Shown here piece by piece: positions 7,851 to 24,114 of a stretch of DNA of 25,285 nt (its first letter is position 1; each line of letters begins with the position of its first letter). Under the pieces are notes generated by a model. The model was given only the letters and a program-made list of their open reading frames with translations, was not told the origin of the DNA and did not search any database. This DNA comes from a virus, in IMG/VR virus record IMGVR_UViG_3300044971_000596, positions 1-25,285 of that record; one strand, written 5' to 3'. The translations under genes and the position numbers were made by a program.

Positions 7851-8164
7851 TGCCATGCTTCAGTCTGTCATCCAAGCGATCCTGTCCGTGTTCGCGGGTA
7901 TCGCAGAACGGCTATTGCGAGAAGGCAAGAAAGCGAAAGACGCTGACAGCGACCATCGCCTTCTTCGCCGCGCTGGTGGCAGGATTAGAGACTGGATGCA
8001 CACGCGCGGTTCTGGTTCCGGAAAGCAGTCCGGTCAGGATCGGGCCTGAAGTAAGGTGCCGCATTTACCTGCTGGAGAACGGCGAGTGGGTGATCAGTGA
8101 CAACGAGATTCTGCTTCCAGAGGGTTGGTATTGTGTTCCGCCCTCCTATGTGGAGGAAAAGTAA
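7850..8164 (+). CDS. Lipoprotein-like protein, Rz1-type position (start uncertain)
   Basis: The frame encodes a basic stretch (KARKRK), a hydrophobic segment (TLTATIAFFAALVAG) and then LETGC, an imperfect lipobox with the Cys at base 7997. The mature part (TRAVLVPESSPVRIGPEVRC, then ENGEWVISDNEILLPEGWY) matches a small phage lipoprotein family of the form 'VLVP...PV.....V...V....GEWV.S.N...PEGWY.LP'. It lies out of frame over a small membrane-type gene, as Rz1 outer-membrane spanins do over Rz. With the ATG at 7850 the Cys is residue 50, long for a signal peptide. There is no ATG, GTG or TTG closer to the basic stretch, though a CTG occurs at 7943. The start is thus unresolved. Its TAA overlaps the ATG of the next gene. 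Confidence 0.65.
   Translation: MPCFSLSSKRSCPCSRVSQNGYCEKARKRKTLTATIAFFAALVAGLETGCTRAVLVPESSPVRIGPEVRCRIYLLENGEWVISDNEILLPEGWYCVPPSYVEEK
7855..8049 (+). CDS. Small amphipathic protein overlapping the lipoprotein frame
   Basis: This 64-residue protein has a hydrophobic, amphipathic N-terminus (MLQSVIQAILSVFAGIAERLL) followed by a charged segment (REGKKAKDADSDHRLLRRAGGRIRDW) and a low-complexity Gly/Ser tail. Similar short proteins with a 'LLRRAG.RI..W' core occur after holin genes in other phages, so I take this to be a real gene and not a shadow. Its start has the well-spaced AAGGTGA site. The reading frame overlaps the lipoprotein-like frame over its whole length. Beyond the Trp near residue 47 the sequence looks constrained by the other frame. 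The role is unknown. It may be membrane-associated and take the place of an inner-membrane spanin. Confidence 0.55.
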   Translation: MLQSVIQAILSVFAGIAERLLREGKKAKDADSDHRLLRRAGGRIRDWMHTRGSGSGKQSGQDRA

Positions 8165-9510
8165 TGCCTACAACGATTCAAATTCGACGCGCTCCGGCAG
8201 CAAGTTGGTCTGCGGCAACCGTGCTTTCTGATGGAGAATTGGGATACGAAACTGATACCGGAAACTTCAAAGTAGGTGACGGTTCTACGCAGTGGAGCAG
8301 CCTTGCATATCAACTGCCATATTCAAATGGACTTGGCAATAGATCCAGCACGGCAACAAGCACACTTGCCATCGATCATCAGTCTGACCGTGTTGGAATC
8401 GGAACAACGACTCCATCCGAAACGCTTGATGTTGTTGGAAATGCTGAATTCAACGGCAACGCAACAATTTCTGGAACTCTTGGAGTAACTGGAAATACTA
8501 CGCTGTCCGGTGATTTGGCCGTGAATGCGTCAACCAGCGCAGATATCACGACAACCACGACTACGGCAACTGTCTTCAATACGAATGCCACGACATTGAA
8601 TGTCGGAGGCGCAGCGACAACGATAAGCGTTGGAGCGGCTACTGGAACCGCGACAATCAATAATGCGACAACCGCAATCATCGGAAATGCGACCGTTGGC
8701 GGGACGCTTTCGGTAACTGGAAATTCAACTCTTTCAGGAACTCTGTCGGTCACCGGAAACACGACCATGACTGGCGATCTCGCCGTCAATGGTGGTGACA
8801 TTACGACAACTGCGACTGGAACCGCAACGGTGTTCAACACGAATGCCACGACGCTGAATGTCGGTGGGGCTGCAACAACTGTTGCGCTTGGCGCAGCAGC
8901 GGCAACCGTAAGCATCGGAAACCTGTCGATGAATGCCGGGTACGGCTCAATCGCACCCGTGTATGGATGTCGTGGTTGGGTGACATGGAACGGAGCAACT
9001 ACGACAACGACATGCCCGTGGGGCGGCGGTGGAACTGCAACGGTGTCTCGTCCATCCGGATCGAACACGGCCACGATCACCACATCAGCGAACCACAATA
9101 TGCTGTCTGGTCATCGTGTATATGCAACATCGGCAATCGCAACGGATTCCTACACCATCACCGTTACTGCACCAAATCAATTCACGGTAACTACAGCGGA
9201 AAGTACACTGATTTCTGCTGGCACAGCAATCACATTGCAGTGGTACACAATTCAGGCATCAGGCAATGTCCATAGTGTGTCAGATGACACCTATGTTGGC
9301 CGTGCTTATTTGAATTGGGCAACTGGATTCCCAGATGCCAACTATTCCGTTCATGTAACTAGTACGCGATCTGGATCTAGCACGACTCCATTGATTGCTG
9401 GAACTATTGGTTCCGATGCGCCAACGACAACGGCATGTCCAATACTCGTAATGGAATACAACAGTAATCCAAATACGGGCGGGTTCACTTCCGTAACCGC
9501 GTTTAGGTGA
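8164..9510 (+). CDS. Tail fibre with Mtd-like N-terminal domain
   Basis: This 448-residue protein starts at 8164 behind a strong GGAGG site. A longer frame back to 8125 overlaps the lipoprotein gene and is not needed. Residues 1-50 (IQIRRAPAASWSA, LSDGELGYETDTGNFKVGDG) match the N-terminal attachment domain of the Bordetella phage tropism determinant Mtd. About residues 90-250 are Thr/Asn/Gly repeats (VTGNTTLSGDLAVN and relatives) that likely form a beta-helical shaft. The tip shares CRGWVTWNG...IQASGNVHSVSDD...GFPDANYSVHVTSTRSGS with a common fibre-tip domain in which that segment is normally 'RAWVNFNG...ASGNVSSITDN...MPDANY'. An extra beta module lies inside the tip (about residues 281-362). 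It likely binds the host surface. Confidence 0.82.
   Translation: MPTTIQIRRAPAASWSAATVLSDGELGYETDTGNFKVGDGSTQWSSLAYQLPYSNGLGNRSSTATSTLAIDHQSDRVGIGTTTPSETLDVVGNAEFNGNATISGTLGVTGNTTLSGDLAVNASTSADITTTTTTATVFNTNATTLNVGGAATTISVGAATGTATINNATTAIIGNATVGGTLSVTGNSTLSGTLSVTGNTTMTGDLAVNGGDITTTATGTATVFNTNATTLNVGGAATTVALGAAAATVSIGNLSMNAGYGSIAPVYGCRGWVTWNGATTTTTCPWGGGGTATVSRPSGSNTATITTSANHNMLSGHRVYATSAIATDSYTITVTAPNQFTVTTAESTLISAGTAITLQWYTIQASGNVHSVSDDTYVGRAYLNWATGFPDANYSVHVTSTRSGSSTTPLIAGTIGSDAPTTTACPILVMEYNSNPNTGGFTSVTAFR
8563..8879 (+). repeat. Pair of 59-base coding repeats with only synonymous differences
   Basis: Copies at 8563-8621 and 8821-8879 lie in the same frame, 86 codons apart. They encode the same peptide (starting TATVFNTNATT and ending NVGGAATT) yet differ at 10 bases, all synonymous. 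They form part of the fibre shaft repeat. Confidence 0.85.
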
Positions 9511-9547: not shown

Positions 9548-11737
9548 ATGCCCTATCTGGAAGGAAAATTGCCATACCGTGGATGGATCACGGATTGTCC
9601 CTACACGAATGTTCCGGATGGGTATAGCGTCGATATGCTGAATGTGCTTCCTGCAGATCCATTCCGAAGGCGGGTAAGGCTTGGCACTAGACCGGCAATG
9701 AACCGAGTCTATGACTTCGGATCAGGAGTGAAGATCCAAGGGATGTTTCGTTGTATTTCATACAACGATCCGGCTAGTCCAGTCCGCAAGGATCGCGTAT
9801 TCATCATTGCTAGTGGCAAGGCATATTACATGGACGCAACATCCGTTGCGCCTGTGCAAATCACAAGCATCAATGGCGTTACAAGCACATCCGCATTTAT
9901 GACGACGACCTCGCGTGTGTGCGGAGTCCAACTGGGACGGTATCTATATTTGGTAGATACCGGATTTACATCAACAACTGCAGGAAGCACGACAACGCCA
10001 TCCGCGTATTGGAAGATTGATCTGCTGTCTGCTTCGCTTGCGATTACATATTGGCACCACCAGACGGGAGGTGGTAACCAGAATGGCCCAGAGGATCTTG
10101 TCCGGAATCAGCCAAATGGAGCAGGAACCGCGTATCACTACGCCCAAACAATGTGCCGTTATGGCGCTCGTATAGTTCTCGGCGGGATCAAGGGCATCGA
10201 GAATGTCTGGTTTATGTCAAAGATTGGTGATCCTGATCTGTGGGATCCGGGAACAATCGGTGACGGCGAAGCAATCGCTGGAAACACCGCAACAACCACG
10301 ATTGGACCAGCCGGAGATGAGATTGTTGCATGTCTTCCAATCGGAGATCAGGGCGTATTGTTTGCTGGAAAGAGAACGCTTACATACCTGACCAATGATC
10401 CCGCTGTGGATTTGGCAACATCGCGACTTGCCGTGATGTCTAACACAATCGGAATTGTTGGACCGAAGGCGTGGTGCGAAGGCCCAGAAAAAAGCGTTTA
10501 TATGCTTGGACAAGACGGTTTGTACCGACTTCGTCCAAACGACTTCAGCGTAGATCGAGGCAATCTAGTAAGCCTAAATAAGTTAGATTCGTGGTTCAAT
10601 CAATTGCGATTCGATCTGCTTGATGTGGCTCTGCATTACGATGTCGAGCGCAGGGGCGTTTGGATGTTTTTGAATAGAACGGATGGACCATCTAATTCAA
10701 CACATTTGTTCTATAGCGAACAAACAGATGGGTTCTTTCCAATCCAATTGCATGACCCGATGCTTCCGGGCGGGTCATACACAACACAGTCCGCGACTGC
10801 GGATGGTCGAAATCAAATTATGTTGTGTGCGTATGAACGGATGATTGGATTCTTCGATCAGCGTCTTGTTGGTGGAATAGACGGATACCCGGGAAGCGGC
10901 TATTCCGTTTCTGGACCAACGACAACTTCTGAAAAGCAGGACCAAAGAATTCAGGCGCACATGAGCATTGGTCCAATGCTGGCACAGCAACCATCTTTGG
11001 TAATGATCAAAGAAATTCAGGTCGAACTTGGAGTTGATGACTATCTGCCTTCATCGTCTGCATCTGGAATTGCGAATCGCCCATATGTGGAATTGCATTG
11101 CGCCGAAACGGCTATGGAATCAATTGCGCAAGATTCCAATTCTTTGCTGATTGAAGAGACATCGCAAATCATTGATGCCAACGAATCAGGCACTGCAATT
11201 GACTGCAATTCTGGATCCGATTGGTACGACTGCGGATATGCAAAGCGAGCCGCTGGCGTTTATTCGTCTCAAGATTCATTCGTTTCTCCAAGCGCCCGTC
11301 TTTTTTATAGCGACGATAACCAGTATGTTTTGGTTCGACAGACATTCGGCATTTCTCGCTGGGTGCTTCGGTTTGCCAATTCAGTAACTCTGAACGGGAC
11401 AACGGGTACTCCTGTGTTGTTCGCGCAAATGCCATCGTCCGGAGCCACAACTAGCGATGATCCAGAAATCGGCACATACAATGTTGTCGAAAACGGAGAT
11501 TCTTCGCGCATTACAACGGATGTCACGGCAACCGTTTCAAGAAACGATTTCGCTGGCGCAGACATCACAAATCTTGGATATCTGCGCGAGGGCATCAACA
11601 ATCGAATGCGCGTTCGCAAGCGAGCCGGTGGCGCGTATGTTCGTATTTCAACAGTCGGATATCCATTCGCAATCGAACGAGTTGCGGCACTCGTTGATCC
11701 GATCAGCACTCGCCGCGATGTGGTGGAGGTGACCTAA
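9548..11737 (+). CDS. Tail nozzle protein (gp12 / tail tubular B-like)
   Basis: This 729-residue protein opens with PYTNVPDGYSVDMLNVLPADPFRRRVRLGTRPAM, the 'N..P.D....R.R.GTRPG' opening typical of podovirus nozzle proteins. It continues as a long beta-propeller-like series of strands (MFRCISYN, RVFIIASGKAYYMD, RYLYLVDTGF, GVLFAGKRTLTYLT, SVYMLGQDGLYRL). Nozzle proteins form the hexameric tip of the short tail and close the DNA channel. Length and position (before the ejected internal proteins) fit T7 gp12. The ATG at 9548 is preceded by a 37-base gap with no strong ribosome-binding site. Codon choice is less GC-biased than in the capsid genes: 27 of 60 bases at 11101-11160 are G or C, against 35 of 60 at 2341-2400 in the capsid gene. 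Confidence 0.78.
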   Translation: MPYLEGKLPYRGWITDCPYTNVPDGYSVDMLNVLPADPFRRRVRLGTRPAMNRVYDFGSGVKIQGMFRCISYNDPASPVRKDRVFIIASGKAYYMDATSVAPVQITSINGVTSTSAFMTTTSRVCGVQLGRYLYLVDTGFTSTTAGSTTTPSAYWKIDLLSASLAITYWHHQTGGGNQNGPEDLVRNQPNGAGTAYHYAQTMCRYGARIVLGGIKGIENVWFMSKIGDPDLWDPGTIGDGEAIAGNTATTTIGPAGDEIVACLPIGDQGVLFAGKRTLTYLTNDPAVDLATSRLAVMSNTIGIVGPKAWCEGPEKSVYMLGQDGLYRLRPNDFSVDRGNLVSLNKLDSWFNQLRFDLLDVALHYDVERRGVWMFLNRTDGPSNSTHLFYSEQTDGFFPIQLHDPMLPGGSYTTQSATADGRNQIMLCAYERMIGFFDQRLVGGIDGYPGSGYSVSGPTTTSEKQDQRIQAHMSIGPMLAQQPSLVMIKEIQVELGVDDYLPSSSASGIANRPYVELHCAETAMESIAQDSNSLLIEETSQIIDANESGTAIDCNSGSDWYDCGYAKRAAGVYSSQDSFVSPSARLFYSDDNQYVLVRQTFGISRWVLRFANSVTLNGTTGTPVLFAQMPSSGATTSDDPEIGTYNVVENGDSSRITTDVTATVSRNDFAGADITNLGYLREGINNRMRVRKRAGGAYVRISTVGYPFAIERVAALVDPISTRRDVVEVT

Positions 11738-12822
11738 TGGAACCAACTACAGCAATGGCAATTGGTGGCGCCGTAATGGGCGGCGGAAGCATCTTGGGCG
11801 GTATTTTTGGCAAGAAGGCAGCGGATCAACAGAAACGCGCTCTTGAACAACTGAAGTCATATGCGGAACAGCAATATGGCAGATTGAGTCAATATGGACT
11901 TCGGCAAGGCGACAAGATTCTTCAGCAATTCATTTCGGAACGCCAACAAAACATCGGCCAATACAATCAGCAGTACGAATCGCTGATCGCTGACTTTGAT
12001 CGCAGATATGCCGAATCCCAAACTGCATATAGCGCAGGAATGCGGGATATTTATTCCGTTTGGGAAGGCGGAATGCGTGATCTTGAGCGGCAATACCAGA
12101 CCGGAATGCAGACGGCATATCAGACTGCTGCAACTGGTCGCGAAAACACCATTGCTGCAATTCGACAAGCAACTGCCGGAACGCTTGGAAGAACTCAGCA
12201 AATGCAGGCGCTTACTGGTATCGGCGGAACCACATTTGGACAAGCCGCTTTGGGCGCTATCGAACAAGAAGGCGCAATGCGCGAAGGTGTTGTTCAAGAA
12301 CAATATGCAAGTCAGTTGTCAGGAATTCAACAGGCGATGGCTGGCGGATTGACGCAACTCGGACAGGCCAGAGTTCGTGGACTGACTGATCTTGAGCGTG
12401 AAAGAATTTCCACAGAACAGCGATTGTCACTTGGACGAACGGCTGGCATTGTTGGGATGCGCGAAAATCTGGCTCAGCAGTTGCTTGCACAGCGTCAGCA
12501 GACTGCCGGTACGGCTGCTTCAATGCGAGAATCGACTCTTGGTCGATACATTGGAATGGAACAGGCAAGAATAGGCGCGGCACTAAATATCGGACAACAG
12601 CAGGCATCACAGGCTGGCGCTGGATGGGCTGCTGCATCAGGAGCGATGGGTGGAATCGCAAGTGGAATTGGTGGAAGTTTGCTGATGGGTGGTCTGATGG
12701 GAGCATTTGCTCCTGCGGCTGGCGCTGCTCCCGCAGCCGGTGCCGGTGCCGGGGCTGGCGGATTTACACTTCCACAAACTCCGCAACTCGGAGCATCACC
12801 ATTTGCTGGAATGACTTTCTGA
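11737..12822 (+). CDS. Internal virion (ejection) protein, Gly-zipper and coiled-coil type
   Basis: This 361-residue protein begins with a Gly-rich hydrophobic segment (AMAIGGAVMGGGSILGGIFG), like the membrane-inserting start of T7 gp14. A long Gln/Arg/Ala-rich coiled coil follows to about residue 270 (KKAADQQKRALEQLKSYAEQ, RDLERQYQTGMQTAYQTAAT). The C-terminus is another Gly/Ala-rich region (GGIASGIGGSLLMGGLMGAF, AGAGAGAGG). Proteins of this composition directly after the nozzle are normally packaged in the head and ejected into the host envelope with the DNA. The TAATG overlap couples it to the nozzle gene, and GGAGGT sits 6 bases before the ATG. The function is inferred from composition and order. 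Confidence 0.7.
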   Translation: MEPTTAMAIGGAVMGGGSILGGIFGKKAADQQKRALEQLKSYAEQQYGRLSQYGLRQGDKILQQFISERQQNIGQYNQQYESLIADFDRRYAESQTAYSAGMRDIYSVWEGGMRDLERQYQTGMQTAYQTAATGRENTIAAIRQATAGTLGRTQQMQALTGIGGTTFGQAALGAIEQEGAMREGVVQEQYASQLSGIQQAMAGGLTQLGQARVRGLTDLERERISTEQRLSLGRTAGIVGMRENLAQQLLAQRQQTAGTAASMRESTLGRYIGMEQARIGAALNIGQQQASQAGAGWAAASGAMGGIASGIGGSLLMGGLMGAFAPAAGAAPAAGAGAGAGGFTLPQTPQLGASPFAGMTF

Positions 12823-12829
12823 GGTCAAT

Positions 12830-13351
12830 ATGGCACAAAACACCGAACAATCCACTTTCTCTCAACTGCTTGGCCGATCGCTTCTTATGGCGATTCCCGG
12901 AACTCTTTCTGGCATTGGGCAGGGCATCGCTGCATCTGATCCTCGCCAACCCTATAAGGGTTTTGGTGTCGGCCTATCTACGGGAGCCGCACCTATGGCA
13001 AAGTTTGCAGGCTCTATGGTCGAGCGCGATCTTGCAAACGAGCAGTATGAGCAGGACACCGAAAGGCTCCTGAAACGGCAGCGCGCTGTCCGCAAGATGG
13101 GCCGCGAGGAACAGGCAGAAGACATCAGGGCCGCTCGCAATCTTGAGGCGGAACAGGCTGCTATGGATGCGGAGAGATTCCGAAAGATGGGCAAGCCTGA
13201 AACCTTGACCGGAATCAATCTTGGCATGAAGGGTCTTGACGATCAGGCAAAGATGTTTGCTGCGCAATTCGCGGCATCTCAAGCACTTCCGACACAAGCC
13301 ATGCGAATGTCTGGAATTCAAACGGCGCGGCAGATTCTTGGAGGCAAGTGA
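12830..13351 (+). CDS. Small helical internal virion protein (putative)
   Basis: This 173-residue protein has a Gly-rich hydrophobic N-terminus (LLMAIPGTLSGIGQGIAA), then a strongly charged helical centre (ERDLANEQYEQDTERLLKRQ and EEQAEDIRAARNLEAEQAAM), and a shorter C-terminal helix ending at QTARQILGGK. It lies between an internal protein and another virion protein and is followed by a TGATG coupling. A GAGG site lies 6 bases before the ATG. I do not recognise a family. It is most simply a third component of the ejection apparatus. Confidence 0.65.
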   Translation: MAQNTEQSTFSQLLGRSLLMAIPGTLSGIGQGIAASDPRQPYKGFGVGLSTGAAPMAKFAGSMVERDLANEQYEQDTERLLKRQRAVRKMGREEQAEDIRAARNLEAEQAAMDAERFRKMGKPETLTGINLGMKGLDDQAKMFAAQFAASQALPTQAMRMSGIQTARQILGGK

Positions 13352-14721
13352 TGATCGACAAACGACCACAGATCATGCCGATGGATGAAGACGAAGGCCG
13401 AGCCTTTGGACAGCAACCCATCGATACAAGCGCCATGCCTCGCGAAGTCAACAAGATGATTGACGAGGCCGATCGCGATTCATCGATGTACATGGGAAAC
13501 CCCCAGATTGCTGGTCAGCGTTCCTTTCGTATGGCTGTTGCTGGAATTGAAGATGGGGACTATCAGGGTCTAGAGCAGTTGGACTTTGGTTCAATTGACG
13601 GAACTCCGGCAGTTGCCTTTATCGATGAGGATGGACAGAGGCAGACATTCCGCCTGACCATGCCGCAATGGACTGCGGCACTTGAGACGAGGTCTCGGGC
13701 CAGAAAGCAACTGGAGCAGGAGTACAAGACAGATGCCCTGAAGAAGGCTCTTCGACCACAGTACGACATGCTTCTGAAGAATGTTCCCGGAGCGCAAGAT
13801 CCAGTTGCTCAGGCCGGTTGGCGGGAACTCTTTGAACTTGACCCAGACACCGCCTATGCGCTTGCTGGAGGCGCGCTTCGCAAGGACAGCAAGATGGAAG
13901 TCCTATACGGGCGCGAGCAGCCAGAAGGGTTTGTGGAAGCCACAAATGCGATGCTGAAGCAGCAGTACAAGCAGAAGATGGAACAGTTCCGGGTTCTGGA
14001 CAGCGGTACGGTGGACATCGCGACCAAGGGCGGTCTTGCTGCTGCGCAGGCGATGGTTCGCCCTCCGGAGGCTAGCCACCTGCCGCTGGAAATGACCCCT
14101 TCTGATTGGCTGTCGGTCAACAATGCGACCATACTTCCGATGGTCAATCTGATCCAGCAGGCGTCGATGCCTCTTGGTCTTCCCGGTATGGACAAGCCGA
14201 TCGTGGCACCGGCACCGGACATGGATGGCAACTACCGCGAGTCCACGGTTCGCAATTGGCTTGGTCAGTTCAACATGTCGGTGGTTCAGCCTTTGGGTTG
14301 GATGCCTTATGATTTCGACAATCCCGTTCACCAGCAGCAGATCATCGAGATGCTGAACGCATACAACAGCAACCGCACTGGCGCCATCACCCGTGGTGGC
14401 GTTCAGCAGACCGTTCAGCCTCGCCCGCAAGCGTCTCGCGATGCTGGTCTTATGTCGCAGGAAGAACCGCAGCAGTCCGCAAACAAGGCCATGTCATCTG
14501 CCGAGCAGTTCTTCCAGCGGTATGAGGACTTCGCGTTTGAGCGACCGGTCGTTTATGGCGAAAAGCCGAGTGATCCGAACGCCGCGACCCAGACCTCCGT
14601 TCAGGCTCTTCTTGACGCACACGAGGAGAATGAGCGACTCAAGGCTCAGGGCAAGGCTCCGAATAAGTATCCTCCGCCGCAGGAGTTGGCAGAGTTCTAC
14701 AAGGCCGTGACTGGAGGGTAA
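13351..14721 (+). CDS. Virion protein of unknown function upstream of the giant protein
   Basis: This 456-residue protein is taken from the ATG at 13351, which overlaps the preceding TGA and has GGAGG 6 bases upstream. The GTG three bases earlier is too close to that site. The sequence is mainly helical and hydrophilic. It has an early acidic segment (MDEDEGRAFGQQ), a small beta module (GTPAVAFIDEDGQRQTFRLT), a helical centre (ARKQLEQEYKTDALKKAL) and a Gln/Pro-rich linker before a last helical part (AEQFFQRYEDFAFERP, PPPQELAEFYKAV). I recognise no catalytic motif. Its position between two likely ejected proteins suggests it is also carried in the capsid. Confidence 0.65.
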   Translation: MIDKRPQIMPMDEDEGRAFGQQPIDTSAMPREVNKMIDEADRDSSMYMGNPQIAGQRSFRMAVAGIEDGDYQGLEQLDFGSIDGTPAVAFIDEDGQRQTFRLTMPQWTAALETRSRARKQLEQEYKTDALKKALRPQYDMLLKNVPGAQDPVAQAGWRELFELDPDTAYALAGGALRKDSKMEVLYGREQPEGFVEATNAMLKQQYKQKMEQFRVLDSGTVDIATKGGLAAAQAMVRPPEASHLPLEMTPSDWLSVNNATILPMVNLIQQASMPLGLPGMDKPIVAPAPDMDGNYRESTVRNWLGQFNMSVVQPLGWMPYDFDNPVHQQQIIEMLNAYNSNRTGAITRGGVQQTVQPRPQASRDAGLMSQEEPQQSANKAMSSAEQFFQRYEDFAFERPVVYGEKPSDPNAATQTSVQALLDAHEENERLKAQGKAPNKYPPPQELAEFYKAVTGG

Positions 14722-14724
14722 AGC

Positions 14725-17700
14725 ATGGACCCGTCTGCGTTTCAGAACGCCATCAACGAGCAGAGGCGCAAGCGGTCACTTACCCCATTTCAGTCAGCGA
14801 TTGAAGACATCAGGCTGAAGCGCCGAGAGGCGCAGTTGCCCGGTGGAGAAGAGGGAACTGCATCAGCCACGGCCAAGCAGTTGGGTGCCGGTGCTGGCGC
14901 TCTTGCCGTTGAACTGGCGATGTCTCCGTTTCAGGGATTGAGCGGACCTGTCGTTACGGAACTTGCAATGACCAAGGCGATCAAGCCGGAGCGGCTTGGT
15001 CAGTTGGCTGAACTGAGCGCACAGCAGACGGCAGACCGATCTGCCGCTGGAATCGTTTCACAGTTGGCTTACGGCGCAGTTACTTCTCTTGCGAGCGACA
15101 TTGCGTCAACCGCCCGTGGCGTTTCGATGGTCACTGCGCCGTACACGCCGGTCGAGGCATTTGCCCGTGGAGCGCAGCAGACAGCGCAGTCTCGCCTTGA
15201 CACTGTTCCGACCAACATCTCAAACGCGCTGACTCAGGGCGTGACGAGCATGGCGCTCATGGCTGGCACATCTGCCGCCGGTGTTCCTGCCGCTGCCCCA
15301 GCCGCCATGTTTGCCCGCAGCCTTGGCGCACAAGCGCAGGCATACGAGCAGGAGTTTTTGAGTGGAACGATGGGCCAGAACCTGTCTCAGGCAGACAGGT
15401 ACATGGCTGCTGGTCTTGGCGCTGCGGTCGAGGCTGGCATCGAATACGGCGGTGGTCGAATGATCATGGGCGCGGCCAAGAAGTTGGTTGGTCGATTTGC
15501 TGCTGGTCAGATCAAGAATCCGGTGTATTCGTTTGTGCGGACGGCTGCTGGTGGTGCCGTAGTTGAGGGTACTGAAGAGGCGCTTACCACCGGCATTACC
15601 GAACAGGGAGTGACGCTCCTCACCAAGCAGGAAACACCGACAGTCGGCAGCACACTTGGTCAGGCAACTGTTGACTTCATGTACGGCGCAATCGGTGGTG
15701 TCGGCGGAACGGTTACTGCGATGCCGTTTGCAGCCGCCGAACGCAAGGCTGTCGAGCGCAAGGTTGATGAGATTCTGCGAAAGTCGCAGACCGAATTTGC
15801 TAGCCCGGAGTTCTTGGAAAGGGCTACTGGCGGTCGAGTTCGCTCGATGGTGTCGATGACTCCAGATGAGCGTATTGCTGAAGTTGAGCAGCAGCGCGAG
15901 GCCGCTTTGTCTGCCCGTGGCACCTATGCGACAGCCGCGACAATGCACCAGAATCTTCTGGAGCAGCGCAAGAATCAGTCCGATGCACTGAAGAAAGCGC
16001 AGCGTCGAAAGGATGCTGCTGGCATCAAGACCGCAGAAGATGCGATTGCGGACCTGACATCCAAGATCGACACATCCGAGCAGGGGCTGATCCTTCTTGC
16101 CGCAGACGCCAAGTCTGCTGAGGCTGGGTACTTTGCGTCCGCCGCTTTCCTTGCCCGCAATTCAGATCCTGTCCAGTTGTCTGTCGATGATGTCCTTCGC
16201 CAGAACAACGCCGCGACTGCTTCGGCATCAACCGATGCAGATCGATCTGTCGAAAGCGAACTGAAGAACTTGGGTTACGAGGTCCAGTTCTACACGGGAC
16301 CGAACAAGGATCAGGTCGGCTTCTACGATCCGGCTGCTCCAAACACGATCTTTGTCCAATCCGGACAGACGAACGCGGCGGAGGCGATTGGCATTGGTTA
16401 CGAGGAAGGCGTTCACGGCATCCAGTATTCGGACGCTGCCCTGTGGCAGGCCATCCGCCAGATTCACAGCCCTCGCGCTGCGATCGACGCCGCCGTTCAG
16501 TATTTCACCCAGCGCACGAATCCAGAGGACATTGCCGCTCGTTCGGCAATCGAGGCTCTCAGCAACCCACAGCGCGGAGCAGTTGATGCTCGATCCGCTG
16601 TTGCCAATCGATTCGGAAGCACCCTTGTTACTGCCGAGGGCGTAGCCAATGACATCCGCGATGGCGTCCAAACCCTGTTCCGTACTGGTCAGGCTCCGGG
16701 TCTTCTTGGTCGAGTCATCACACGAATGGGCCTTCGTGGCCGTCAGGCTGCGACCGCCCTTCGCGTTCGCAACCTGATGATGGAGCGAGCATCGACTCGC
16801 CAGCGCGCAGGAATCTCCGAGTTCGGTAGGCGGATTCAGGAAGCCAAGGGTGGCATTCAGGCGATGTCGGCATTTGAGCAGGAGGTTGCGCGCCGTGCCG
16901 CTGCACCGGCTCCTGCACCTGCTCCTGCACCGGAACCAGCGCCAGCGCCAGTCCCTGCACCTATTCCATCTCCGGCGAATCAAGCCGCGCAGGATGCGGC
17001 AAAGTTGTTTGGAGGTTTGGCTGGAGGGGTTGGATCTGCGTTTGCAAATCAAGCAGCAACTAAATTGAATAAGGTGCTTGATGGGTCAATGACCTTCAAT
17101 GAATTCTTGGCCGATGTTGGATTCAAGGCTGGTGGAGTCAATGCGCAGACTGCACAAATTGTTCTTGATCGAGCAAAGGCTCAAGGACTGAAGAGCATTG
17201 ATGGCGCCACATACGACGCTCTTTCAAAGGACAGCGGATCTCTGTTCGCTCGCGCTCGCCAGCAGGCTGCTCGTGGACCCATCGAGTCAGCAAAGGCCAG
17301 CGTCGAAGAAAGTGGTCGCGTTGCCATTGCAGATGCAGACGAGTTCTTCAAGAACACATGGTCTAAGTTGCTGTCTGCAACGAAGCAGCAGGTCAAGGCT
17401 GTTCCGCAGAACTATCGAGAGGCCGCAAGGCGCGCGGTGTCTGACATTCGCGACTGGGTCAAGACAAACGAGCGATACGCGGATTACTACGCTAAGGACT
17501 GGAAACTTACTCGTCAGATCCTGAGCGACTACATCGGAAGGGACATCACGGAAGACGAGTTCCTGATGTACCGCACCATTGTTGGCCTTACATCGCCCAA
17601 CACGATGCTCCCATCCAACATCTCAGATTCGCTCGTGTTCTGGGATTACTGGATGCGCAACGGAAACTTCGACGCATTCACCCTTGGACCTAAGCCGCTG

Positions 17701-20700
17701 ACAGGCGCTCTGGTTGTATTTGAGTCTCCAGATTCGATTAGCGGAACCACCGGCAATACCAAGGTTCGCACTATCAAGATTGTTGAGCGTCTGGTCAAGG
17801 AGCAGGGTTCAGTTGCTGGCGCGATCAAATACCTGCAAGAAGGAATCTCAGTTACTGAACTGCACAAATTCAACCGACAGATGGGGTATTCCGGTCCTGT
17901 CGGAGACATCGGAAACATTCGCGATCTGGTCAAGCAGGCTACAGGTCAGGACAATCTGATTCCCCGAATGTTTATCTTTGGGCAGAAGGTTGGCGCATAC
18001 ACGCTGAATGCCTTGGGCGACCAGCAATACACGACGGTTGACATCTGGGAATCTCGTTTTATCCGCAGTTACTTCAAGGAACTGTTTGGCGAGAACATCG
18101 GACTGCCCGAGAACACTGACGAACACCAACTATTCACGAAGTTCGGTGAACTGTTCCGTGAGGAAATGCAGAATGCGACTGGGCGAGAGTGGACGCCAGC
18201 AGCGTTGCAGGCATTGCGTTGGTTCTATATCATCGACGCGGCCAAGCAGGCCGGATACACAAGGGCATCGACCAATGAAACCATCAGCCACTACACGAAC
18301 CGCCGACTCCAGCAAGCCTATGGATATCGAGCAACTGGCGAGACTCGCGGGGCAGAAGGCATCGGAACGGCTGAAGAAGGAGATCGCGGCGAACGCATTC
18401 AGCCGCAAGCCTTCAAGCGCGACCTCACCAACGACATCCCAGAGTCGATCACCGATGAGCGCCAGCGCAAGCGAATCGTCGATGAAGGATTCATCCGGTA
18501 TGCGCGATATCAGTCAAGCGTCGCTGGAGTCGGGTTCGGCTTTGACCAGCGAAGATTTGAATCTCCTCGACAGCATGGGGTACTGAGCGGGGTAACGGTT
18601 TCCGGCGAGTTCGTCGCGCAGCCGCGTCTTGCGGATGCGTATGGCTCCGCCGGTATTCCGATGCCGGTCATTCAGGAACTCGTGGTTGACGCCAACAGCG
18701 CCGAGGTCTATCGGTCGCTCGTCGTTGCCACCAACCAGAACAACCCATATGGCGCTGCCGTTTACGCATATCCGGCGAACGAATATCAGCAGAAGAGGCT
18801 GTTCGTTACCGCTGACGGCAAGGCCGGTATGGCTATTTCCGCAGATGGCGACATCGTTTCGGTGTTCAGCGAGGGCAAGAGCGGCTATGCGCGCGCTCTG
18901 CTTGCCGCAGCCGTGCAGGCCGGTGGCGTTCGTTTGGATTGCTTCGATACCGTGCTTCCGCAGTACTACGCGCCGCATGGTTTCCGCGCTGTTTCTCGAC
19001 TGAAGTGGAACGATCAGTTTGCGCCAGAGGGCTGGGACAAGCAGAAGTTCGCCAAGTTCAACAATGGTGAGCCGGATGTTGTGTTCATGGTCTTCGACCC
19101 GTCGTACTACAAGGCATACAAGCAGACCGATGGCGTTGTGTCTGAGTCGTACGACGATGCTGTCGCAAGGCAGGCAACTGAAGTTCGCAAGGTTAAGGCA
19201 ATCCAGACCGGCGGACGGGCGCTCGCTGCTCGTCAGCGCGCAGTTGACGAGGCCTCGTCTGATCAGGTTGATACACGCACGATGCCTGCGGAGTTCTACT
19301 CCGCGCTTGATCGCGCCATTGCTGGTCTGCCACAGAAGTCAATGAAGCCAGATGGCTGGATGCAGATGATGAATGGCCTTATCAACAAAGGCATCATCAA
19401 GAATGATGAATACTTCTGGTCTGGTTTGCAGCAGATGCTGGAGTTGCAGAAGGCAGAACAGCCCGATACTCCGCTTACCAAGGCTGATCTAGATGGCATG
19501 ACGGCGATGGGAATTGTTGTATCGAATAGGACTCTCATCGAACCAACAGAAATGGCTATGAAGAAGTACCTTCCGCCGGGATATTCGGTATCCGAAAGTC
19601 CAGAAGGTGGAGAGTACGCAGTTGATGGGCCTGAGTACGGTATTTCGATCGAACCGACTTTGCAATCCGCTGTTTCTCAGGCTTGGCAGCATTACAACGC
19701 GCTGCGCATTGCTGGAAAGCAACAGCCAGAGGTTCCCCCTGAAACTCCACAACCTACCCGCTATGGGCCGAATGTGTTTAAGACACAGACGCTGCCAAAT
19801 GCACAGAACTACAGAGAGAACATTCTCGTAGTTCAAAGAGAACTGCGCCCATCGATTTCTGCGAAGGTTGTCTATGAGCCGATGATCAACGGATTCCAAT
19901 CAAAAAGGCCGTGGATGGTTGTATCCGCAGATGGAGAAATCAATCTTCGTTTTGGAACAAGCGATGAAGCAGACAAGGGTTTGCAAAAAGTACTTGAAGC
20001 AAGCCGACAGGAAAACGCATTCAGGAAATCACATCACGAGGGTGTGGGCGGAGAAGTCCTGCTGCACTATCGAACCACCGACCGGGATGTTGGTGGCAAG
20101 AAATATCTCTTCATCGAAGAACTTCAGTCCGATTGGGCGCAGCAAGGTCGCAAAGTTGGATTCAAGGAATCGATCACGAAGAGCAAGGAGCAGGTTCGGA
20201 AAGAAGTTGATGATGCCTACAGAGTGGTTGCAATCGCTGGCAAGGAATTGATGAGTGTCTTTGCTTCTGAAACCACCGATGTTCGAGAGGACATCATTGA
20301 TTTCATTGACGGTCGCTTCATGGCGGATGTGGTCGATTCTCCAGAATTGATGGTTGAGAAACTGCGCCGCAAGTTCTTGTCTGTCAACATTGTCGATGCT
20401 GCTCCGCAGATCACTGCATACATGAATGCAAAAACAGCACTCAAGAATGCAATCAATGTTCGCAGGACGAAGGAAACAGGGCGCCCAACTGGCCCATTCG
20501 TAACAGCCACAGATCCTTGGGTCACGCTTGGACTCAAGCAGATTCTGATGCAGGCAGTGAACGAGGGTTACGACGGAGTTGCGTTCATCAACGGAACGCA
20601 AGAAGCAGCACGAAATGAACAGATCATTGGAGTTGATAGTGTTAGATACAAGACGCTTGGAGGCGGGCTGTATCGCGTAGTCGCATCGACTGGATTGACT

Positions 20701-23700
20701 ATGGAAGATGCGTCTTTGAATGACATTCGTTCTCAACTTGGAACGACTGTTGCCGGAATGATCGAAAAGAACGAGGGAGAAGATCAGGGCAACGATATTC
20801 GCTTGCTTGATCTTCGTGGAAAGAACATCGGAGCGGAGGCGATGCAGCGGTTCTACGAAGGAATCGTTCCATTGAACCTCAAGAAGTTGCTCAAGAAGTT
20901 GGGCGGTCCGGAACTGACCACGATCAAATTGGAGAACATCCCCAATCCGCAGGATCAGATTGCGCTCGACATCACTGACACCCTTGAGGCAAATGTCCGT
21001 AAGGGCTTGTCTCTGTTTGCCCGTCGCCGCGAGCAGCGTCAGGAGTCGCTGGCGTTCCAGATGGGTCGCCGTAGCGGACAGATCGCGGGAATGATGAAGG
21101 GCCGCGAGCAGGGTCTTCGCGAGGGCAAGGAGGAACAGCGGCGCAAGGATGTCGTTCGTCGCCGCGAGATGCGCGCCAAGTTTGCCGAGCGAGTCGCTGG
21201 ATTTGAGCAGCGCATCGAGAATGCTGCGCAGACGAACGCCGATCTTCGCCAGAGATTGAAGGACATGCGGGCGGCTGGAGTGGAGCAGCGAGCCGACCTC
21301 ATGGATCGCGCCCGCGTTCGTGTGCTGAAGGCGTGGTTTAGAGGCCAGCAGAAGGGTTCCAACGCTGGGTATGAGCAGGCTAAGAAGGACATGGTTGCGA
21401 TGCGGAAGGACGCATTGGCGATCATCAAGTTGCTTCCGCCGAGCATGCGCGGCGCATACGGCAACGCTCTTGCCACGATGAAGACTGTTGCTGGAATCGA
21501 CCGTATCTCTCGCCGCGTGGTTCAGGATCTCGCGACCGCAGACGCTATCGACATGGTGAACGCGATCAATCGAATGGATCGCCGCGCTCGCAAGGTCGGA
21601 CTGCGCACCGACACTCGCGATGAGATCATTGACATGCTGAACACGGCTCGTGGAATGCTTGCGTCTGGACGGAACAGGCTGCTTCCATTCACCAACACGA
21701 GCGATCTGTCTGGGCGAATCAATGCAGCAAATGATCTGCTGGCTCAGGCTGTTGCCATGTTTGAAGACGAGCGGGCTGAGTACCGCATGGAGCGCGATGC
21801 TCGCGCTGCTGAATTTGAGCAGGATGCATCCGACCTGTCGGCCACGCTGGCTGGCAAGAAGGGTCTTCCCCCAGAGCGTCTCGCATCGCAGGCTCCGCGC
21901 CGTGGCGTGTTCGGGCAATTGTTCAGCAACAACGCGAACATGGACATGTACACGATCATGGAGAGGCTGGAGGGTTCAGCGAGTGGTGTGCTGAACAAAC
22001 TCTGGAGCGGCCTGATCGCTGGCAAGAATGCGATGCTGAAGGATCGCCGCGATCTTGATACCCGAATTGATCAGGCTCTTCGCCGTGCTGGCTATGACGG
22101 CTACGACGGCTATGCCACTCGTGCAGCCGGTCTGTACGGCGATGCGACTGCTGAGACTGTCGAGGTCAAGATTGGCGGAGAGATGCGCCGGATCACGGTG
22201 GATCAGATGATGCATCTGGCGGCGTTGGATAACGACACCGTGGAACTGTTGACGGACGAGAATGATCCAGAGACGCGATCCAGCCCGATCGTGTTTGCTA
22301 CATATCGTTACGAGCAGCCCATCTATCTGACCAAGCAGGAGCATGCGGCTCTCGTTGCTGGTTTGACCCCGCGACAGACTGCGCTGATCAGCGAACTCAA
22401 GGCGATCCTTGAGGGTTCTGTGCAGCCCCGCGTGTTTGAGATTCACTTCCAGCAGCAGGGCAAGCAGCCGCCGCGTGTCGAGGGCTACTTCCCTCGATCC
22501 AGACTCAGCGATGAGGTCGGCGGCGAAGTGGTCGATCCAAACATGCAGCCGGGTCAGGTGCTGAACACCATGCTGACCAACGCTGGGTTCCTTCAGAAGC
22601 GAGTCCGTAGTTCTGCTCCGCTGGTGATCGGCGGCATGATGCGAACCTTCGACGGCCACATTGACGAGGCTCTGCGACTGATTCACCTCGCGATTCCCCT
22701 TCGTCATGCGATGACTGTGCTTCGCCGTCGCGGCGTTCGATCGAACATCGAGCGGATCATGGGTCGGGGCAGCAACGACGCCGTCCGAATGCTGGTTCTC
22801 AACGGTGTCGGACTGAGCGGAAAGCCGCAGGGTGATCTGGTCGAGATGGTGAACAGCAACATCAGCGGCGCCCTGCTGCTGATCAACCCGAAGACATGGC
22901 TCCGCCAGTATGGTGGAGCGTTCCGTCTGGTTACGGAGTTTGATGCCGACGCATGGGCGACTGGACTTGCATCGTCTTTGGCACTGACCCCATCGCAACG
23001 CGCGCAGCAGATCCAGCAAGTCGAAAGCACGAACGGATACTTCTACGAGCGCCACCGCCGTTCGCAGGTTGGACTGTTTGCCAATGTGCTTGGCGATCCC
23101 AGAACGGGACGCGAGCAGTTCGCGAACGGCATGCGAGCCGTTGGTCGCGCTCTTGCTACCGCTGGCGAGGACGCCGCTGCCGGTCGATGGCTACAGGCCG
23201 CGAACGATGTGCGTCAGGCGGTCACTGGTGTTGGCCGCATCATGCGGGCGGTTGACTTTGCTTTGCGAGGCGTGGACCGACAGATCATGCTGGTCGCATA
23301 CAACGCAGCACTCGCCCAGTTGCGCCAGACCAATCCTTCGATGACGAACATCGAGGATGCTGCGGCTGCGATGGCCGAGCGCGCATTCCGCAGGACGCAG
23401 AATGTCAGCGATCCAATGGATGACACGATGTACGCTGCCCAGCAGAAGTTCAGCCGTGGCGTTGGTCGCCTGATGTTCCCGTTCAGCAGCGATCCGCTGA
23501 AGGCATACAACCAGATGCGTCGCGCCTATGCGAGTGGAGACGCGACACGAATCGCCAAGGCTACGGCTGGAGTCGGAACAAACATTCTGGCTGGCGCTGC
23601 CGTGAATCCTCTGTGGGCTGCGGCTGGCCTTGCGATCGCGTCTGCATTCGATTCTGGCGATGATGACGAGGTGATCGCAGAGATGCTCCGCGAGAAGGAA

Positions 23701-24114
23701 ACCAACGCGGCGGCTCGACGAATCGCGTCAGATGTCATGGCAACAGCATTCGGAACCGCCGGTATGTTGGCGAGCGGAATCATCGAGGCAGCGGTTGGCG
23801 ATCCTCGTATGGCCGAGGATGTTGGAGAACCTCTGGCGATCCGCGCCCTTGGTGACCTTGCCACGGCCACTGCCACGGGCCAGTTCGGTCGCGCTGGCGG
23901 CATCGCTGCTCAGATGGCTGGTGTGCCGGTGGTTGCACCACTTGGCGCCATCACATCGACTGCTGCTGCTGTGCGGCCAAGCGACGAGAAACTGCTGACT
24001 GAGTACCGCAAGCGTCGGAAGGCTGGAACGCTGACGCCCCAGCAGGCTCGTCGCATGCGTGTTCTTGAGGCTTCAGAGCGACTGCGCAAGTTGCGCGAAC
24101 AATCTACCCAGTGA
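14725..24114 (+). CDS. Giant multidomain polyvalent-type ejection protein (3129 aa)
   Basis: One unbroken frame of 3129 codons starts with GGAGGG 7 bases upstream. Visible parts in order: 1-370, helical with Gly/Ala-rich hydrophobic stretches and the EGTEEALT motif; 375-520, coiled coil; 520-600, a zincin-like fold with EEGVH (560-564) in place of HExxH; 727-755, Ala/Pro hinge; about 875-1240, a helical domain with GLTSPN (954) and GQKVGAY...TVDIWESR (1086-1111), like helix-hairpin-helix glycosylases or DUF7178; about 1286-1483, a GNAT-like acetyltransferase fold; about 1516-2075, a phage polyvalent domain with FIEELQSDW (1796-1804); 2098-2370, coiled coil; then a helical end with YFPRSR (2588) and NPKTWLRQYGG. 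Such proteins are packaged and injected. Module functions are inferred from pattern only. Confidence 0.85.
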   Translation: MDPSAFQNAINEQRRKRSLTPFQSAIEDIRLKRREAQLPGGEEGTASATAKQLGAGAGALAVELAMSPFQGLSGPVVTELAMTKAIKPERLGQLAELSAQQTADRSAAGIVSQLAYGAVTSLASDIASTARGVSMVTAPYTPVEAFARGAQQTAQSRLDTVPTNISNALTQGVTSMALMAGTSAAGVPAAAPAAMFARSLGAQAQAYEQEFLSGTMGQNLSQADRYMAAGLGAAVEAGIEYGGGRMIMGAAKKLVGRFAAGQIKNPVYSFVRTAAGGAVVEGTEEALTTGITEQGVTLLTKQETPTVGSTLGQATVDFMYGAIGGVGGTVTAMPFAAAERKAVERKVDEILRKSQTEFASPEFLERATGGRVRSMVSMTPDERIAEVEQQREAALSARGTYATAATMHQNLLEQRKNQSDALKKAQRRKDAAGIKTAEDAIADLTSKIDTSEQGLILLAADAKSAEAGYFASAAFLARNSDPVQLSVDDVLRQNNAATASASTDADRSVESELKNLGYEVQFYTGPNKDQVGFYDPAAPNTIFVQSGQTNAAEAIGIGYEEGVHGIQYSDAALWQAIRQIHSPRAAIDAAVQYFTQRTNPEDIAARSAIEALSNPQRGAVDARSAVANRFGSTLVTAEGVANDIRDGVQTLFRTGQAPGLLGRVITRMGLRGRQAATALRVRNLMMERASTRQRAGISEFGRRIQEAKGGIQAMSAFEQEVARRAAAPAPAPAPAPEPAPAPVPAPIPSPANQAAQDAAKLFGGLAGGVGSAFANQAATKLNKVLDGSMTFNEFLADVGFKAGGVNAQTAQIVLDRAKAQGLKSIDGATYDALSKDSGSLFARARQQAARGPIESAKASVEESGRVAIADADEFFKNTWSKLLSATKQQVKAVPQNYREAARRAVSDIRDWVKTNERYADYYAKDWKLTRQILSDYIGRDITEDEFLMYRTIVGLTSPNTMLPSNISDSLVFWDYWMRNGNFDAFTLGPKPLTGALVVFESPDSISGTTGNTKVRTIKIVERLVKEQGSVAGAIKYLQEGISVTELHKFNRQMGYSGPVGDIGNIRDLVKQATGQDNLIPRMFIFGQKVGAYTLNALGDQQYTTVDIWESRFIRSYFKELFGENIGLPENTDEHQLFTKFGELFREEMQNATGREWTPAALQALRWFYIIDAAKQAGYTRASTNETISHYTNRRLQQAYGYRATGETRGAEGIGTAEEGDRGERIQPQAFKRDLTNDIPESITDERQRKRIVDEGFIRYARYQSSVAGVGFGFDQRRFESPRQHGVLSGVTVSGEFVAQPRLADAYGSAGIPMPVIQELVVDANSAEVYRSLVVATNQNNPYGAAVYAYPANEYQQKRLFVTADGKAGMAISADGDIVSVFSEGKSGYARALLAAAVQAGGVRLDCFDTVLPQYYAPHGFRAVSRLKWNDQFAPEGWDKQKFAKFNNGEPDVVFMVFDPSYYKAYKQTDGVVSESYDDAVARQATEVRKVKAIQTGGRALAARQRAVDEASSDQVDTRTMPAEFYSALDRAIAGLPQKSMKPDGWMQMMNGLINKGIIKNDEYFWSGLQQMLELQKAEQPDTPLTKADLDGMTAMGIVVSNRTLIEPTEMAMKKYLPPGYSVSESPEGGEYAVDGPEYGISIEPTLQSAVSQAWQHYNALRIAGKQQPEVPPETPQPTRYGPNVFKTQTLPNAQNYRENILVVQRELRPSISAKVVYEPMINGFQSKRPWMVVSADGEINLRFGTSDEADKGLQKVLEASRQENAFRKSHHEGVGGEVLLHYRTTDRDVGGKKYLFIEELQSDWAQQGRKVGFKESITKSKEQVRKEVDDAYRVVAIAGKELMSVFASETTDVREDIIDFIDGRFMADVVDSPELMVEKLRRKFLSVNIVDAAPQITAYMNAKTALKNAINVRRTKETGRPTGPFVTATDPWVTLGLKQILMQAVNEGYDGVAFINGTQEAARNEQIIGVDSVRYKTLGGGLYRVVASTGLTMEDASLNDIRSQLGTTVAGMIEKNEGEDQGNDIRLLDLRGKNIGAEAMQRFYEGIVPLNLKKLLKKLGGPELTTIKLENIPNPQDQIALDITDTLEANVRKGLSLFARRREQRQESLAFQMGRRSGQIAGMMKGREQGLREGKEEQRRKDVVRRREMRAKFAERVAGFEQRIENAAQTNADLRQRLKDMRAAGVEQRADLMDRARVRVLKAWFRGQQKGSNAGYEQAKKDMVAMRKDALAIIKLLPPSMRGAYGNALATMKTVAGIDRISRRVVQDLATADAIDMVNAINRMDRRARKVGLRTDTRDEIIDMLNTARGMLASGRNRLLPFTNTSDLSGRINAANDLLAQAVAMFEDERAEYRMERDARAAEFEQDASDLSATLAGKKGLPPERLASQAPRRGVFGQLFSNNANMDMYTIMERLEGSASGVLNKLWSGLIAGKNAMLKDRRDLDTRIDQALRRAGYDGYDGYATRAAGLYGDATAETVEVKIGGEMRRITVDQMMHLAALDNDTVELLTDENDPETRSSPIVFATYRYEQPIYLTKQEHAALVAGLTPRQTALISELKAILEGSVQPRVFEIHFQQQGKQPPRVEGYFPRSRLSDEVGGEVVDPNMQPGQVLNTMLTNAGFLQKRVRSSAPLVIGGMMRTFDGHIDEALRLIHLAIPLRHAMTVLRRRGVRSNIERIMGRGSNDAVRMLVLNGVGLSGKPQGDLVEMVNSNISGALLLINPKTWLRQYGGAFRLVTEFDADAWATGLASSLALTPSQRAQQIQQVESTNGYFYERHRRSQVGLFANVLGDPRTGREQFANGMRAVGRALATAGEDAAAGRWLQAANDVRQAVTGVGRIMRAVDFALRGVDRQIMLVAYNAALAQLRQTNPSMTNIEDAAAAMAERAFRRTQNVSDPMDDTMYAAQQKFSRGVGRLMFPFSSDPLKAYNQMRRAYASGDATRIAKATAGVGTNILAGAAVNPLWAAAGLAIASAFDSGDDDEVIAEMLREKETNAAARRIASDVMATAFGTAGMLASGIIEAAVGDPRMAEDVGEPLAIRALGDLATATATGQFGRAGGIAAQMAGVPVVAPLGAITSTAAAVRPSDEKLLTEYRKRRKAGTLTPQQARRMRVLEASERLRKLREQSTQ

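Follow-up and report, generated by a model that had tools for sequence, protein, structure and literature searches.

Polyvalent proteins are known from phages and conjugative elements, and domain accretion and zincin processing have been proposed for them (Iyer et al. 2017; PMC5512222). DNA glycosylase modules are absent from that account, and in the text searched no description was found of whole-cassette replacement between near-identical phages. A second point of comparison is the virion RNA polymerase of N4, gp50, a 3500-residue ejected protein (PMC12633501) that is packaged unprocessed (PMC5512222). The third is the isolate Limnohabitans phage DC33 (PQ492659.1), a head-tailed phage (PMC12195039) that encodes a 3125-residue polyvalent protein (XLZ15523.1). 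The DC33 record is filed under Inoviridae, and this protein is annotated there as hypothetical.

The DNA analysed here, referred to as the window, is a 25,285-base stretch of an IMG/VR-type virus record. It contains one intact open reading frame of 3129 amino acids at 14725-24114 on the plus strand, as are its parts and the three upstream genes described below, preceded by a good ribosome-binding site (GGAGGG at 14713-14718, ahead of the ATG). Homologues of ~3050-3500 residues are found in the related records L001, L004/L007, L006 and L009. The end parts of the window protein, compared with the 3048-residue homologue in L001, have dN/dS values of 0.074 and 0.061 and are under purifying selection similar to that on the major capsid protein (0.066), so the giant frame is not a chance one, and the single 3129-residue protein proposed by the first-pass annotation is borne out. 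On the same strand, 5′ of the giant gene, lie portal-like, major head protein, tail and receptor-binding genes, which is the late structural context expected of phage-type polyvalent proteins. Immediately upstream, three genes (361, 173 and 457 amino acids; 11737-14721) encode helical or Ala/Gly-rich products that, by position and composition, are likely to be ejection partners. None of the three matched a Pfam family; the 457-residue protein recurs in the L001, L004, L006 and L009 records. The gene belongs to a tailed phage, probably a short-tailed one.

Like the polyvalent proteins described previously (PMC5512222), the giant is one late-region phage polypeptide with disparate enzyme-like modules, GNAT and zincin among them, and has ART-PolyVal in its orthologues; unlike the catalogued examples, it carries no named LPD domain. 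Scanned against Pfam both entire and in slices, the window protein gave no match over the cut-off, catalogued polyvalent domains included, whereas ART-PolyVal scores above it in the orthologues from L004/L007 and L006. We file the protein with this group, as it appears to work like a polyvalent protein and catalogued polyvalent domains are present in its orthologues. Several unrelated enzyme-like domains (GNAT, glycosylase-like and FIEELQSDW) occur in the one polypeptide, which supports the earlier description of a giant polyvalent-type protein with several enzyme-like modules at the end of a structural gene run. As with gp50 (~3500 residues), it closes a run of small, medium and giant genes (gp52-gp51-gp50 in N4), and the two are further alike in a likely membrane-spanning N-terminal part, a central enzyme, a large helical C-terminal part and an HExxH-type motif. 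Unlike gp50, the window protein has no RNA polymerase, and its zincin precedes the cargo on the N-terminal side. No sequence homology between the window scaffold and gp50 was detected, so the likeness is one of analogy. Gene order and the N4 precedent suggest that the giant is probably injected into bacteria together with the phage DNA.

The giant consists of two constant ends and a variable centre. The N-terminal constant part (residues 1-480; 14725-16164) contains an Ala/Gly-rich helical region followed by a coiled-coil-like stretch, and the C-terminal part (residues 2106-3129; 21040-24111) is a helical scaffold that found no match in a search of bacterial genomes. Residues 1-682 are 99% identical to L001 and 32-48% identical to L004/L006/L009; the corresponding values for the C-terminal part are 98% and 54-63%. 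Both ends are retained in L004/L007, L006/L008 and L009.

The L001 record (38,221 bases) reveals how the centre differs. Most structural genes shared with the window are 94-97% identical (97.4% from portal to capsid), and the N-terminal ~700 and C-terminal ~1020 residues of the giant are 98-99% identical. In blocks of 100 residues, identity is 98-100% over the first ~700 residues and 95-100% over the last ~1000, with 12-60% in the middle. DNA identity is 94-96% on both flanks, ending at 16,922 and resuming at 20,956, with only scattered short matches in between, which delimits an exchangeable central cassette at 16923-20955 (residues ~733-2077). Its 5′ edge is sharp, identity dropping from 29/30 to background at ~16,920 within an Ala-Pro linker of 12-base repeats (repeat family D1; 16891-16975) that carries the breakpoint (~16922), and its 3′ edge is graded across ~150 bases. 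The centre of the giant is replaced as a block between near-identical phages. In L001, the 4-kb centre holds a glycosylase-like domain of another family (22-25% identical), lacks the GNAT and has a diverged FIEELQSDW module, the two centres being 25% identical in the glycosylase region and 43% in FIEELQSDW. In the glycosylase region, L001 shares 58-63% identity with L006, L007 and L009, whereas the window shares only 22-25% with any of the four. Because the ends are 98-99% identical, yet the glycosylase regions group differently, recombination is the best explanation. The G+C fraction is 0.48-0.50 in the FIEELQSDW part versus about 0.57-0.63 in the constant ends. Several genes for tail appendages and receptor binding also differ between the window and L001 (47-71% amino acid identity); what varies is thus receptor recognition and the presumed injected cargo, on a particle that is otherwise largely constant. 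A receptor-binding candidate with an Mtd_N domain (8125-9510) is among the genes that diverge.

Scans recovered L004/L007, L006/L008 and L009 as further relatives, each with a different centre, and this layout of vehicle and cargo is common to five records. All of these, and L001 too, have a glycosylase-like domain of the DUF7178 type paired with an unnamed partner; DUF7178 scores above the Pfam cut-off among the L004/L006/L009 cargo. Pfam ART-PolyVal, an ADP-ribosyltransferase domain, occurs in the L004 and L006 centres, and by our reading of the sequences a further ART-like domain is present in L006 and L009, a second HEXXH-type domain in L009, which is without FIEELQSDW, and an unnamed HDxxGH-type domain of enzyme-like look in L004 (YADVDEDRGRRIAAAYEAMPNDP...HDAFGH, after the glycosylase-like partner), which has no Pfam match.

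Local profile searches confirm the module order read previously, namely zincin-like, glycosylase-like, GNAT, FIEELQSDW and a C-terminal helical part; the identities of the modules are of unequal strength. The zincin-like module (residues 482-682; 16168-16770) stands where it was placed in that order but is degenerate, with E560-E561-G-V-H564 (EEGVH, 16402-16416) instead of HEXXH. The intact motif is kept in orthologues, as HEALH in L004/L007 and HEVIH in L009, and EEGVH or EEALH is found in the window, L001 and L006. From the alignment, the window copy has lost one presumed zinc ligand, the first His, and the position of a candidate third ligand, E638, is invariant among orthologues. In the predicted model this part forms three short strands followed by the helix bearing the motif. 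A PDB profile search with the module gave no usable match.

The next module (residues ~894-1167; 17404-18225) resembles HhH-GPD DNA glycosylases, mainly in the register of its catalytic residues. K1088 (17986-17988) and D1106 (18040-18042), the candidate lyase-type Lys and catalytic Asp, are invariant in 25 diverged homologues (identity to the window mostly 15-25%) and lie 18 residues apart, matching K120 and D138 of Escherichia coli endonuclease III (Nth). A combined profile aligned to the endonuclease III family in the K120/D138 register with a score of 30.1 (P 0.0011), a match to which a probability of 20% is assigned. On its own, the window-type profile reached 22.5, and none of 40 column-shuffled controls scored above 17.2. 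DUF7178 matched the window domain at 17.2 bits, under its 27-bit cut-off. Unlike endonuclease III, the window copy carries a long insertion; no significant single-sequence match to that enzyme was found, and PDB profile searches returned no glycosylase, only repeat-helix artefacts or noise. The predicted model is poor in this part and did not yield a fold. The register, with a profile match of modest significance, supports but does not prove a HhH-GPD glycosylase/lyase at residues ~895-1167, so the earlier assignment of a glycosylase-like helical domain stands on its residues and not on its fold.

The GNAT acetyltransferase-fold domain (residues ~1294-1490; 18604-19194) is secure, on the evidence of both its sequence and a confidently predicted model. 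PHROG 2563 matches it at 1.6e-18, pLDDT is mostly over 90 in this part, and all 50 matches listed by VIA-align for the GNAT-bearing model are GNATs (Z 8.3-10.6). Foldseek returned NAGS and RimJ matches at probabilities of 0.5-0.98. The GNAT-like fold is thus confirmed as predicted, and structure prediction, suggested by the first-pass annotation as a check, excludes for this module a protein built only of helical scaffolding. As the VIA-align list was filled by the GNAT, it is uninformative on the zincin and glycosylase parts of the same model. The acetyl-CoA loop of GNATs (R/Q-x-x-G-x-G/A) usually begins with Arg or Gln; at the expected position the window protein has GKSGYA, in which the Gly and Ala fit and the first residue does not.

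The FIEELQSDW module, together with a conserved N-terminal helical part, spans residues ~1522-2106 (19288-21042; motif at 20110-20136). At least 120 viral contig stretches contain it, and 131 of the loci fetched carry it. Among 62 members scanned, no shared Pfam family was found and no Pfam polyvalent model matched, and a search under the motif retrieved no publication from the literature covered. What the first-pass annotation called the phage polyvalent domain is found in many phage giants, but no catalogued polyvalent (LPD) model matches it. The predicted model (pLDDT 84.9, pTM 0.81) has 24 BFVD relatives at E<=0.001; against the PDB, Foldseek gave no match at that threshold for either this or the GNAT-bearing model. 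VIA-align aligned it with GNAT-fold chains at Z 10.2, 8.7, 8.4 and 7.7, the top matches being the C-terminal domain of mycobacterial isocitrate lyase 2, which we take to be GNAT-like, SpNatD, NAA40 and CREBBP. The remaining rows are confined to a long helical hairpin (about 307-409 of the model), and every listed row that extends beyond it is a GNAT fold. A profile comparison with the window GNAT (hhalign) was not significant, and because unrelated models can attain scores close to Z 7-10, the fold stays a prediction: an enzyme of GNAT fold that has a large insertion and conserved polar residues of its own. H1770, R1783, P1924 and Y2044 are kept in all homologues aligned there and were not imposed by the search pattern, whereas the invariance of E1799, Q1801, S1802, D1803 and W1804 partly reflects the DNA pattern used to fetch the sequences. 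One Acetyltransf_1 match among the 62 members did not reappear when ten members were scanned again, and the ‘endolysin’ label of PHROG 7348 derives from a local match to part of a 2564-position profile and is no evidence of lysis. A short tag around [LM]F[SA]R is seen repeatedly where modules end, at residues 840 (before the glycosylase-like domain) and 2097 of the window protein and in L029, L031, L037 and L051. It is enriched in relatives (20 versus 4.9 expected, a count inflated by related sequences), but in large part it coincides with the C-terminus of the FIEELQSDW consensus, and we therefore downgraded its reading as a general cleavage site.

We consider it likely that the giant is a polyvalent ejection protein in which a conserved scaffold carries an exchangeable cassette of early-infection cargo. 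The N- and C-terminal parts would form the vehicle, serving head packaging, passage through the tail and assembly at the envelope, and the central cassette, once ejected and refolded, would be active in the cytoplasm early in infection. Three modules may make up the cargo: one resembling glycosylases/lyases of the base-excision type, a GNAT whose substrates would be proteins or small molecules, and FIEELQSDW, which would add another GNAT-fold enzyme of more elaborate build. With crossovers in the Ala-Pro linker on one side and shortly before the C-terminal part on the other, recombination would swap the cargo as a block, and near-identical particles could thereby deliver different early effectors, which may act on host targets and may bring an anti-defence benefit. 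A fuller reading, in which the cargo on a constant scaffold is exchanged as receptor-binding genes are, FIEELQSDW is a new class of GNAT-fold enzyme and a DNA glycosylase/lyase is injected, is put forward tentatively, as we regard it as slightly more doubtful than credible. In this fuller reading, H1770, H1781, R1783, E1799 and D1803 would form the putative active site of FIEELQSDW.

Other explanations fit parts of these data less well. The giant could be a polyprotein, cleaved at its linkers during assembly or after entry into free fragments of which perhaps only some reach the host. Zincin processing as proposed for polyvalent proteins (Iyer et al. 2017; PMC5512222) and the tag at module ends point in this direction, but the window zincin motif is degenerate, the tag is largely a domain end with a count raised by relatedness, and gp50 is packaged whole (PMC5512222), so we regard cleavage as unlikely. 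A little less likely still is that the modules are degenerate enzymes kept only as folds in a tape-like or structural ejection protein whose centre varies under weak constraint. The loss of the first zincin His in the window, L001 and L006 and the atypical start of the GNAT loop would agree with such decay; against it, K1088 and D1106 are invariant across widely diverged sequences, the FIEELQSDW homologues retain H1770, R1783, P1924 and Y2044, and centres are replaced by recognisable domains (ART-PolyVal, DUF7178) and not by drift.

That the difference between the window and L001 arose as a chimera of metagenome assembly is very improbable. Although all records are metagenomic contigs and the 5′ breakpoint falls in a repetitive Ala-Pro tract, neither reading frame is interrupted or shifted at either junction, and L006 and L008, from different metagenomes, hold an essentially identical giant with its cassette, within a layout seen in five records. 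The L001 cassette is only 58-63% identical in its glycosylase region to the other cassettes seen, and so was not copied from those contigs. If the giant is indeed an ejection protein with exchangeable cargo, its cassettes would form a natural catalogue, to be read from comparisons of near-identical phages, of what it pays a phage to deliver during the first minutes of infection, probably proteins directed against defences. Cargo exchange in a constant vehicle would also point to an ejection process that tolerates different domains, which bears on how giant proteins pass through the tail. For FIEELQSDW, common in viral contigs and absent from Pfam, the fold assignment offers a first testable function.

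The same modules are shuffled in other phage giants. In local profile searches across all fetched loci, the glycosylase-GNAT pair was found in 48 proteins and the helical part with FIEELQSDW in 88, these counts being occurrences that include partial and redundant contigs and not independent events; reversed module orders are also present. The glycosylase-GNAT-FIEELQSDW order recurs in three other phage proteins (L137, L134 and L055) and the glycosylase-GNAT pair in DC33, so the window combination is one arrangement of a shuffled set, and the suggestion that it is new is weakened. Among the loci examined, this N-terminal zincin joined to the set was seen only in the lineage of the window. The DC33 protein is like the window giant in size, in its glycosylase-like and GNAT pair (49-56% identical in the GNAT region) and in a short motif of the C-terminal constant part, which is common to the C-terminal regions of the DC33 and L137 giants. 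It differs in its N-terminal part, which has LPD22 and ART-PolyVal, and in having an intact HETAH motif, and FIEELQSDW was not found in it. In Microbacterium phage Barnstormer (L013), a minor capsid protein adjoining the portal carries a GNAT of the window type as a C-terminal fusion. A solo GNAT reading frame of 215 residues adjoins a FIEELQSDW-glycosylase giant in L179 and L180, so that the module occurs both free and fused in related loci.
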